Below are positions 32,775-40,726 of a stretch of DNA of 64,000 nt, piece after piece (positions within the stretch are counted from its first letter, which is position 1; every line of letters starts with the position of its first letter). Position numbers and translations under genes: made by a program. The stretch covers positions 24,372 to 88,371 of the forward strand of contig CANTFL010000049.1 in the NCBI GenBank assembly GCA_947650285.1. The letters are read 5' to 3'. The notes below the pieces were generated by a model. The model ran no database searches, was not told the DNA's origin, and saw only the letters and a program-made list of their open reading frames with translations. The DNA comes from Hyaloperonospora brassicae (lineage: Eukaryota; Oomycota; Peronosporomycetes; Peronosporales; Peronosporaceae).

Positions 32775-33165
32775 TGTAACGGGGCAGCCCGTTACATGAA
32801 ATTGTCACTTTAAGGAAAGTGACAATAAAGAATATAAAGATGGATATTCATTAAAACAATATCACCAAAGTGGTGATATTGAAGGGTCGACCAAAGGGTC
32901 TGTTCATTGGTTGATATCGTGATGATATCAACCCACCAATCGCCGCAAGACGCGCGCAATGAGTGGTGACGAGACGTCACCATACATGCAGTTATATTAG
33001 TATAATTGAATTAAGTCAAACGAAGAGACAGTAGTTTAAAGACTTAATTTATTAATATAACAGTTCTACTTTTACCCTACCTACGCTTCCTCGCTTGCCA
33101 CGTGTACGTCCGTCGGGGCACCCAAATCCCTTGCGTTAAGTTACGCAAGGGTGTGCCCCGTTACA
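32775..33165 (+). repeat. 5' LTR of Gypsy-1
   Basis: Ends are TGTAACGGGG and CCCCGTTACA (10-bp perfect inverted termini). The first 22 nt are themselves a hairpin (TGTAACGGG, loop GCAG, CCCGTTACA). Further stems inside: TTGTCACTTT/AAAGTGACAA, AATATCACC/GGTGATATT, GTTGATATC/GATATCAAC, CCCTTGCGT/ACGCAAGGG. Confidence 0.96.
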
Positions 33166-33209
33166 CCTGGTAGCACTTTGTAGTCCTTCCAAGGACCACA
33201 TCATCCAAC

Positions 33210-34364
33210 ATGAACATGTTGGATGAAGAAGACACCTTTCACGCCACGCGTGAAGGGTCTACCCATTTGAGTGACATCGAATGGGGTGCGGTAGAACGAA
33301 TGAGTTCTACCGTAGGCGAACTCGTCGTCAGCACCATGTTGGAGTCTCTAGACAGAGACCAACAACATGCCGCTATCGCCAAGTTCATTCAGAATGAACT
33401 TGCTCTCGAGAGGGAGAAAGTAGCCTTGCTTCACCAGCAAGGCTCTCAACAGGCCGAGCAGTTGAGAGAACTCGGTGCTCAACAGACGGAGCTGTTGAGA
33501 CAGCAGCAATTCCATGCTGCTGTGGGCGGGACGGCGCATGCGCGTCGTCCCGAAGTCATGAAAGTCGACATTTCCAAGTACAGTGGAGTCCCGGAGGACT
33601 CCCTGTTACTATGGTTTGTCGAACTCGACAGAGCCCTAAGGGCTCGTCGCGTCGAAGATGAGCAAATGAAACTCACATTTGCTCAGACCCACTTGGCAGG
33701 GCGTGCCAAAACTTGGTTCCTGGGACTCGAGAGTAGCAACCCAAATGTGTTTAGGTCGCTAGATGACTTCGAGTCCCGGTTCAGACAAACGTTTGAGCCG
33801 CCACGAGCTGAGTTCAGGGCTCGTTCTGAGCTCCTGAAACTCAAGCAGGGTAAGCGTGATGTGCACGCTTACGCACAACATATACGACTCCTAGCGAATA
33901 GTATAACTGCTAACCCAGTTCATGAACATACGTTAATTACGGTGTTCATGCAAGGGCTCGCAGAAGGGCCCATCAGGGTCCACCTGTTCCGCCTTGAGCT
34001 GAATACGCTTGAAGATGCGATATCAGCCGCGGATCAGAAAGACTTTAGCATGAGACAGGCTCATGCTAGCTCAAACTCTTATCGTCCACCGAGACGACAA
34101 GAGATCGGAGGTCCAGAACCAATGGACCTCTGCTATGTTGAGAGCGAGAGACCTCGCTCTTCAAACAACAAGCGATTGCAGAGGTGCAATCGCTGTCAGA
34201 AGTTAGGGCACTACGCATACTAGTGTAGTGCTCCACGCCCAGTACCAAACAGTACTGAGCGAAATGGACGACCTTTTGCCAGAAAGGGCAATGGGCGTGG
34301 GTCCAGCGCAGTTGCGAAGCCGCAACAGCGAGACGGACCATCAAAAAATGGTCGGGGTCAGTAG
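33210..34364 (+). pseudogene. Gypsy-1 gag with an in-frame TAG in the zinc knuckle
   Basis: Gag (capsid/nucleocapsid) starts at ATG 33210. A coiled, Gln-rich segment (residues about 70-110) is followed by the retrotransposon gag domain (WFVELDRALRAR, AKTWFLGL, SRFRQTFEPP, LLKLKQGKRDVHAYAQHIRLLA). The CCHC knuckle CNRCQKLGHYAY is cut by TAG 34221-34223 just before its last Cys. The frame then stays open to TAG 34362-34364. The Gypsy-2 copy carries the same TAG at the same place, so it is inherited, not private to this copy. It could be a readthrough codon or an old defect. Confidence 0.9.
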
Positions 34365-34383
34365 GGGCGGAGCGCCCTACTGA
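34343..34383 (+). promoter_or_regulatory. Candidate -1 ribosomal frameshift site at the gag-protease boundary
   Basis: Heptamer A AAA AAT (34343-34349) is in the correct phase of the gag frame. After an 8-nt spacer comes a hairpin with perfect 9-bp arms TCAGTAGGG (34358-34366) and CCCTACTGA (34375-34383), 8-nt loop. The gag frame ends at TAG 34362; the -1 frame is open there and leads straight into protease. The same layout is kept in Gypsy-2 (61183-61223). Confidence 0.6.
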
Positions 34384-34663
34384 TCCAGCAAACTTAAGAG
34401 AACTTGCAAATCTCTTGACGAAAGTTGATCCAGATACACAATCATTGTGTGTCTCTGAACCTGGTGATGACGTTTCGCTCATCACCTTGAAGTTGGAAGC
34501 GACAAATGATTTGTCGCTTCGTGCCCTAGTAGACTGTGGGGCGTCGAACAACTTTGTTCGACGCCAGTCACTAGAGGGTCGTAGGCTCAAGTTCGTTGAG
34601 CGCGACATTCCCCCTCACAAGGATGACGGTGCGCCTTGCAACAGGCGCATCGATAACCGTTGA
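34365..34663 (+). pseudogene. Gypsy-1 protease, broken by a one-base insertion
   Basis: The -1 frame reads DPANLRELANLLTKVD, then the aspartic protease core LRALVDCGASNNFV (active site D-C-G in place of the common D-S/T-G). Near 34,608 Gypsy-1 has one more base than Gypsy-2 (CATTCCCCC against CATCCCCC), which throws it out of frame to a stop at 34,661-34,663. Protease-like sequence continues in the next frame (WLRRYEPRVSWQHRSVK, about 34,770-34,820). Confidence 0.8.
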
Positions 34664-34793
34664 GAAACGTGTAGTAGGAATCCACTACACGTTAGAAGGC
34701 GAATAGTACGATGATGACTTCATCGTACTGGATCTGGATGACAAATTTGATGTCATCCTAATATTACCCTGGCTCAGAAGGTACGAGCCAAGA

Positions 34794-39243: not shown

Positions 39244-40204
39244 ACACGCGCCCTAGGCGCTTGTAGACGGATTGCAAGTTTGCAATCGCGTCACGCATCT
39301 CAGCCGAGATGTGCGTCCTTCCCCAGGGCGAATTTAAGGAGTACACATCCCTATGTGCACGCTGCGAGTTGTCAACACAACTCGCACAAGGGTCTCCCCA
39401 TGTGAGGCAAGGAATGCCTGCCTCACTCGATAAACAATGCAACCGGTACCTAGCACCGGTTGGTGTTCGCCGTTCGAACCTGAGGCGTGTTGCCTCAAGT
39501 TTCTTGAGCCACCCTTCTCGTCCAAAATTCTTTACGTTTTGGACGAACGCGTTCCACGCAGCCAAAAGCGATGTTTTGTCACGCTTTTGGTTGCTGTTGT
39601 ACCATCGATGTCTAAGAAAGACATCGAGATAAAAATCTTCTTCAGCGCGAAAGTTCTTCGCGCTGGAACTCAAGCCGTGAAGCTCGGTTGCATCGAATAA
39701 GGGTATTCGATGGTGTTGGCCTGTCTCGTGAGACAGGCTATTGAGGAGTTGTTCGGGCAAACGCTACGGCTTCAACTCATCACGCTTCACAGTGGTATCC
39801 TTGTCGGTACCACGGCTCGCGCCATCGTCATCACGCTCGTGCGAAGACGCACGAGCCGGCGGTGGTGACGAATAGAACTCACCACCCTGATCATCATCAT
39901 CATCACTGCCGAACAGACTGTGATGCAAATCACGAGTCCGTTCGTTCGGCAGTGGTCTTGGCGAATACTGAGGCGTCGCCGGTGAGCGAGACGACTCTGG
40001 AGCATTGCCCGAGTCAGACACGTCTGACTCGCCAGAGTAGATGACCTCTACATCAGGGTCATCGTGCGCACGCGGTGTGATACCGCGTGCACCTGCAGCA
40101 CCTGTTGCTGCAGGCGAAGAAGGGGCGGCAGACGACGAAGAGTCTGCCGCAGAGGCTTGCACAGCACCAGGCTGTGTGGGTCTTGAGTCACCTCGCATAG
40201 ACAT
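38615..40204 (-). CDS. Antisense ORF in Gypsy-1, coiled coil with Cys cluster, unknown function
   Basis: On the minus strand one frame runs from ATG 40204 to the stop at 38615, about 530 codons, broken once by TAG 39764-39766. The first 146 residues are Ser/Ala/Pro-rich and acidic. The second part has an ordered-looking region (EDFYLDVFLRHRWYN, LLAAWNAFVQNVKNFGREGW) and a Cys cluster, C-x8-C-x7-C-x2-C, near 39,370-39,440. A low-complexity linker follows. The last 110 residues (about 38,640-38,990) are a heptad-like coiled coil (DELRDDLKHERDRRYAL, LFGELATARGEISRLNTEV). From 39,250 to 40,204 no sense-strand frame competes. I do not recognise the family. Antisense extra ORFs next to the 3' LTR are known in some plant Gypsy elements. 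The TAG means this copy may be dead. Confidence 0.6.
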
Positions 40205-40323
40205 GTTAACTATGCGAGGTCAAGCGGAAAGTGAATGGAACGGACCCAACAAGTGCTCCCAGTCCCAATGGTGGCCAACGGGTGGCCTCCATGTTTTCGA
40301 TAGTCACACGGTGACTATCAGTT

Positions 40324-40331
40324 AAGGGGGG
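40324..40331 (+). other. Polypurine tract of Gypsy-1
   Basis: AAGGGGGG followed by GATGA directly precedes the 3' LTR at 40336. Confidence 0.75.
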
Positions 40332-40335
40332 ATGA

Positions 40336-40726
40336 TGTAACGGGGCAGCCCGTTACATGAAATTGTCACTTTAAGGAAAGTGACAATAAAGAATATAAAG
40401 ACGGATATTCTTTAAAACAATATCACCAAAGTGGTGATATTGAAGGGTCGACCAAAGGGTCTGTTCATTGGTTGATATCGTGATGATATCAACCCACCAA
40501 TCGCCGCAAGACGCGCGCAATGAGTGGTGACGAGACGTCACCATACATGCAGTTATATTAGTATAATTGAATTAAGTCAAACGAAGAGACAGTAGTTTAA
40601 AGACTTAATTTATTAATATAACAGTTCTACTTTTACCCTACCTACGCTTCCTCGCTTGCCACGTGTACGTCCGTCGGGGCACCCAAATCCCTTGCGTTAA
40701 GTTACGCAAGGGTGTGCCCCGTTACA
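40336..40726 (+). repeat. 3' LTR of Gypsy-1
   Basis: 391 bp, identical to 32775-33165 except for about two substitutions (AGATGG/AGACGG and TTCATT/TTCTTT). Confidence 0.96.

Follow-up and report, generated by a model that had tools for sequence, protein, structure and literature searches.

What maintains short perfect hairpins along the entire length of a retrotransposon that also has to encode proteins? This question is raised by a stretch of 64,000 nucleotides (nt) from the oomycete Hyaloperonospora brassicae (Peronosporaceae; assembly GCA_947650285.1, contig CANTFL010000049.1, positions 24,372 to 88,371; hereafter the window), which carries a Gypsy element, Gypsy-1, tiled with inverted repeats from one end to the other (32775-40726). 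For retroelements as for RNA viruses, the issue is whether such structure serves escape from RNA silencing or packaging, or is a by-product of template switching. Within Gypsy-1, variants that have been through replication show constraint on the hairpin arms, variants private to one copy do not, and pairing on both strands may be what is selected.

Density of hairpins

Counting perfect stems of a stated minimum length with loops of at most 10 nt, we found 103 stems of at least 8 base pairs (bp) and 80 of at least 9 bp in Gypsy-1, the longest reaching 14 bp. They occupy both long terminal repeats (LTRs), gag, reverse transcriptase (RT), integrase, the chromodomain tail and the 3' region, so that the preliminary description of this locus, made from the letters alone, was right in placing hairpins in LTRs, gag, RT, integrase and the antisense region alike. 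It had named seven stems in the integrase segment 37537-37914; all seven are there, and they are exactly the stems of at least 9 bp in that segment, but the one given as 37602-37620 in fact extends over 11 bp (37600-37622). The tiling is looser than the repeat every 20-40 nt first described. Stems of at least 8 bp are on average 79 nt apart, with no regular spacing (gaps from 23 to more than 200 nt), and under a relaxed count (stem of at least 6 bp, loop of at most 12 nt) 160 hairpins fit side by side without overlap; they recur about every 50 nt and take up 44% of the element, versus 4% in 20 shuffles.

This density is far above expectation. A first-order Markov model (100 runs, 7,561 nt) gave a mean of 0.30 stems of at least 9 bp and a maximum of 2, versus 74 observed. 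Two hundred protein-preserving codon shuffles gave 0.14 such stems in gag and 0.26 in pol, versus 8 and 28 observed, and an initial rough estimate of 0.02 chance stems per 378 nt proves to be of the right order. The element also stands out from its surroundings: the window without 32775-40726 and 59311-61760 contains 4 stems of at least 9 bp in 53,598 nt, a related LTR (49872-50174) accounting for three of these, and both the Copia-type pieces of the window and its host genes (Rad4, molybdenum-cofactor and phospholipase-D types) fall where stems are scarce or absent. Chance and codon bias are rejected by the Markov and codon-preserving controls, and an assembly artefact by the recurrence of these stems in 30 copies spread over 28 contigs; most hairpin sites are moreover common to a sister family, and we give these explanations practically no weight.

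Fit around the protein codes

The hairpins had been proposed to be fitted into conserved coding sequence through codon choice, and both the excess over codon shuffles and the conservation of the protein bear this out. When copy L083, whose pol stretch is open, was compared with 120 relatives among the matches listed, highly conserved codons differed from the majority in 1 of 54 cases where they lay wholly inside arms, as against 5 of 281 outside hairpins. Arms lie on slightly less conserved columns (0.73 versus 0.78), and a codon register is visible as a weak trend, with third-to-third pairing in 8 of 42 stems.

A further reading frame runs on the other strand. In the part of the antisense frame that is free of sense overlap, fixed differences between Gypsy-1 and its sister family, outside arms, amount to 10/115, 5/110 and 28/111 at antisense codon positions 1, 2 and 3, a pattern which suggests that the frame evolves like a real gene in that part. 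At the third antisense positions of the same stretch, arms carry 2 differences in 60 sites versus 28 in 111 outside (p = 0.0002), a roughly eight-fold deficit.

A tiled lineage of Gypsy elements

The genome (100.56 Mb in 898 contigs) yielded 1,657 first-look candidates, of which 40 were scored and 30 Gypsy-1 copies fetched; these are all 99-100% identical to the query, being the closest copies chosen by similarity and not a random sample. The integrase region is tiled in 30 of 30, with 6.5-8.9 stems of at least 9 bp per kb. Three copies of the sister family, which shares 60-87% identity with Gypsy-1 depending on the piece, were read whole and have 2.4-2.8 such stems per kb, a tiling that has partly decayed. 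When 102 Gypsy-1 hairpins were compared with the three sister copies combined, 72 keep all or all but one of their pairs, 12 lack two and 18 lack at least three, and only 0.8% of 18,000 randomly placed 9-bp hairpins keep 8 or 9 pairs. Because this retention is far above random placement, most hairpins predate the split of Gypsy-1 from its sister family, with some gain, loss or misalignment in addition. Tiling is thus a trait of a chromodomain Ty3/Gypsy lineage comprising both families. The sister copies (L071, L072 and L073) are about 85-87% identical to each other, yet the two LTRs within each are 97-99% identical, pointing either to old lineages inserted late or to LTR conversion.

Two sampled families outside this lineage (L031-L060) have no tiling. 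They had been candidates for other Gypsy elements and were rejected as such, as they have no tblastn match to the pol protein and form two unrelated families; these 30 rve-bearing loci therefore serve as non-Gypsy controls, with 2 stems of at least 9 bp in 99,141 nt. Among viral contigs no relative was confirmed. Four Gypsy loci in prokaryote genome records (L074-L077; 32-40% identity) have 0.2-1.7 stems of at least 8 bp per kb and are probably eukaryotic contamination of bacterial records.

Constraint and compensation in the arms

Variants among the 30 copies were separated into those shared by at least two copies, which have undergone replication, and private ones, which we assume to have mostly arisen after insertion; the counts omit alignment columns 2960-2975 (a two-state block), columns in which at least four copies have a gap and those that the window copy lacks. 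At third positions of pol, shared variants occupy 1 of 159 sites in arms versus 36 of 494 outside (p = 0.0006), and private variants 15 of 159 versus 60 of 494 (p = 0.39); the contrast between the two classes has p = 0.019. At first and second positions, shared variants do not differ between arms (2/295) and outside (7/1011). At 38984-38993, the 30 copies divide about 14 to 16 between two versions of a ten-base block whose surroundings are nearly identical, and these versions are not related by inversion.

Covariation in stems, put forward at the outset as a check, was found between the families: 24 pairs have changed on both sides with pairing kept, versus 7, 8, 12, 9, 6 and 8 in six slid controls. 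It is modest in the LTRs, where both sides have changed in 3 of 72 predicted pairs. Arms also change at about half the outside rate between families at third positions and in the LTRs (37/251 versus 131/466 in the latter), and at four-fold sites of pol the figures are 9/87 versus 63/332 (p = 0.08). We do not take this slowdown as proof, since the stems were picked in Gypsy-1, which alone can produce a deficit of up to two-fold. Because stem choice may bias the inter-family rates in this way, the case for selection rests on the shared variants of the 30 copies and on the deficit in the antisense stretch.

Strand preference

If sense RNA were the target, G.U pairs should be tolerated above A.C pairs. 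In the window element, allowing either wobble gains 52 G.U and 46 A.C pairs, and in the three sister copies A.C is the commoner of the two (40, 45 and 51 pairs, versus 36, 28 and 31 G.U). One-sided fixed changes have produced 27 G.U and 30 A.C pairs, and the two compensations that we caught midway both have an A.C intermediate. Folding energy is far below that of shuffles for both strands all along the element, the difference between strands varying in sign by region, and stable RNA tetraloops are not enriched (1 GNRA and no UNCG among 15 four-base loops). Pairing in Gypsy-1 is thus without clear strand preference, and both strands, or DNA, are a likelier target than sense RNA.

Explanations for the hairpins

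The explanation that we favour, with a rough probability of 0.4, is selection for local self-folding in both strands, with avoidance of duplex or silencing as its preferred function. Its parts differ in strength. That selection acts on pairing seems quite probable from the comparison of copies and families, and we lean, with less assurance, towards a strand-symmetric target; the avoidance of duplex or silencing is a tentative choice of function. Each stretch would fold locally on itself, no less in the complementary strand (antisense RNA, first-strand cDNA or both) than in the genomic RNA. This would prevent sense and antisense transcripts from forming long double-stranded RNA with each other and could hide them from small-RNA-guided silencing, while rare template switches within hairpins would invert loops and might help to perfect stems. 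Small RNAs homologous to transposable elements have reportedly been seen in an oomycete; for this reason, and because an antisense frame exists, we prefer RNA self-folding. A bolder form, in which two complementary gene-bearing strands fold throughout as armour against sense-antisense duplex and RNA silencing, pairing being a third layer of information over two protein codes, is rather unlikely as a whole. The hairpins had also been suggested to be a source of small RNAs, but Dicer substrates are expected to be longer than these stems of at most 14 bp, a length that speaks against this suggestion.

Several observations weigh against selected self-folding of both strands. Downstream of pol, shared variants (7/302 in arms, 46/1093 outside) and private ones (27/302, 139/1093) show a weak contrast (p = 0.67). 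Pairs changed on one side number 111, far above the 24 compensated, and 12 have changed on both sides without pairing. Where sense and antisense frames overlap, neither has a codon pattern (about 28-35% changed outside arms), and in the integrase tail second positions change more often in arms (8/57) than outside (2/113). Two further points would suit the sense strand: 12-bp arms with one mismatch include 14 G.U versus 4 A.C (in windows that may overlap), and plus-strand loops are mildly A-rich (164 A versus 114 T, p = 0.016).

The last of these is among the signs in favour of an ordered structure of the sense genomic RNA for packaging, Gag binding or compaction, together with the strong folding of the plus strand and with selection that operates in the replicating phase. 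A genome-wide ordered RNA structure, for packaging or RNAi resistance, was among the three meanings first suggested, and an ordered structure under selection does fit best of the three; its specificity for sense RNA is doubtful, however, as G.U is not clearly favoured over A.C (A.C being the commoner in the sister copies), the minus strand folds equally well and the tetraloops lack enrichment, and we consider this account unlikely. A function at the DNA level, whether of hairpins formed by single-stranded cDNA or of cruciforms formed by the integrated copy, would agree with Watson-Crick-only, strand-symmetric pairing and with the tiling of the LTRs. Yet the lack of constraint on private, mostly post-insertion variants makes a cis role of the integrated DNA in the survival of a copy unlikely, cruciforms would seem to call for stems longer than these 8-14 bp, and A-rich loops are unexpected of DNA hairpins; this account appears more improbable still. 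The third suggestion was that template switches in near-palindromes during reverse transcription or replication perfect the stems, selection only filtering the proteins. Perfect, strand-symmetric Watson-Crick stems would be expected of it, and the process itself occurs in this lineage: a loop is inverted inside kept arms in one Gypsy-1 copy (L017) and in one of the four family copies (the sister copy L073), and loop-inversion footprints of template switching are described in the excerpt from PMC8794818. Template switching alone nevertheless fits poorly, because it predicts neither the missing shared variants in arms nor the two-sided differences. Unbiased copying from arm to arm should remove or double changes and not cut the number of changed sites as seen among shared variants. 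Only one inversion is found in the 30 copies, and among 28 well-aligned hairpins with at least three fixed sister differences, changes are confined to a single arm in only one (present in both LTRs). Compensated pairs comprise 21 transitions and 10 transversions, versus 429 and 359 for all changes outside hairpins, an excess of transitions that leans towards stepwise change. We therefore regard mutational drive, too, as an improbable sole cause.

If selected self-folding of both strands is the right explanation, Gypsy-1 would represent extreme selection on nucleic-acid shape in coding sequence, with about 100 perfect hairpins in 8 kb laid over sense and antisense frames, maintained in the replicating family and decaying thereafter. 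Its many copies are natural stem mutants, which makes the origin and function of a genome-wide structure testable.

Element structure and other features of the window

Gypsy-1 is a chromodomain Ty3/Gypsy LTR retrotransposon (Table 1). In pol, RT is followed by RNase H and the H2C2/rve integrase (rve at 35 bits, cut-off 32.6), and a chromodomain (PF00385, 51.2 bits) lies after the integrase in the 3' frame; the LTRs are 99.5% identical across 391 bases. The window copy looks defective: no single open frame spans the gag-pol interval, gag is closed by an in-frame stop, and immediately before the RT catalytic box this copy lacks a short segment that related proteins have. In other copies a single long frame stays open for as many as 1,666 amino acids (aa). 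The closest named protein among the matches listed is from Peronospora effusa (87% identity). The antisense frame has 24 relatives, two of which (559 and 574 aa) span the entire query at 52% identity. Such relatives occur in Hyaloperonospora, and one from H. arabidopsidis is named in the database as an RxLR effector candidate, though the frame at 38615-39760 (minus strand) sits inside a retroelement.

Table 1. Coordinates of Gypsy-1, its parts and related pieces in the window
Feature	Position	Strand	Remarks
Gypsy-1, hairpin-tiled over its whole length	32775..40726	+	80 stems of at least 9 bp, loop at most 10 nt
5' LTR, perfect hairpins from base 1	32775..33165	+	99.5% identity to 3' LTR
gag frame, 337 aa, ended in this copy by an in-frame TAG	33210..34223	+	8 stems of at least 9 bp
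pol frame: RT, RNase H, H2C2, rve integrase	35279..38263	+	28 stems of at least 9 bp
Integrase segment with the seven stems named first	37537..37914	+	
3' sense frame: Tf2-1-like SH3 domain and chromodomain	38011..39243	+	
Antisense frame, 381 aa	38615..39760	-	24 protein relatives; codon-like change pattern outside the sense overlap
3' LTR	40336..40726	+	99.5% identity to 5' LTR
Sister-type LTR piece	49872..50174	+	77% identity to Gypsy-1 LTR; three stems of at least 9 bp
Sister-type LTR piece, inverted	59311..59612	-	adjoins partial Gypsy-1 copy
Partial Gypsy-1 copy	59613..61760	+	94.8% identity; 13 stems of at least 9 bp

At 59311-61760, the sister-type LTR piece thus abuts the partial Gypsy-1 copy in inverted orientation. 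Nine further open reading frames of the window are host genes, Copia-type pieces or without family, and neither the Gypsy-3 nor the LINE named in the preliminary description was recognized among them. A direct repeat of 97% identity (9465-9756 and 14564-14855) lies on either side of Copia-type frames and probably represents the LTRs of a Copia element.

Comparison with known systems

With other chromodomain Ty3/Gypsy elements of oomycetes, Gypsy-1 shares gag, RT, RNase H, the H2C2/rve integrase, SH3 domain, chromodomain and LTRs; its whole-length tiling may set it apart from them, the relatives in other species being compared as proteins only. The preliminary description knew of no element with this property, and we likewise found none in the open-access literature, judged by title and the start of the abstract. 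Genome-scale ordered RNA structure is known in RNA viruses, where it is recognized as specific to the sense strand, tolerant of G.U and serving persistence or evasion of host sensing. It resembles that of Gypsy-1 in that an entire coding genome is much more structured than its shuffled counterparts, but Gypsy-1 has discrete, perfect hairpins with Watson-Crick pairs only, in both strands and over sense and antisense frames. Palindromes are also found in the LTRs of maize Sireviruses, as they are in Gypsy-1; those of Sireviruses lie in cis-regulatory LTR sequence outside the coding part, whereas in Gypsy-1 the coding part is tiled as well.

The template-switch hairpins treated in the excerpt from PMC8794818 share perfect stems and rare loop inversions with Gypsy-1; they belong to rRNA and microRNA loci, and Gypsy-1 holds about 100 stems in one element, with constrained arms. 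The genomic RNAs of Ty3, Ty1 and HIV-1, as presented in the excerpt from PMC11381356, are mosaics whose highly structured share is 30% at most in Ty and about 40% in HIV-1. They are, like Gypsy-1, RNAs of LTR elements with local structure within coding regions, but in contrast to the mosaics of that excerpt, every examined region of Gypsy-1 is tiled.

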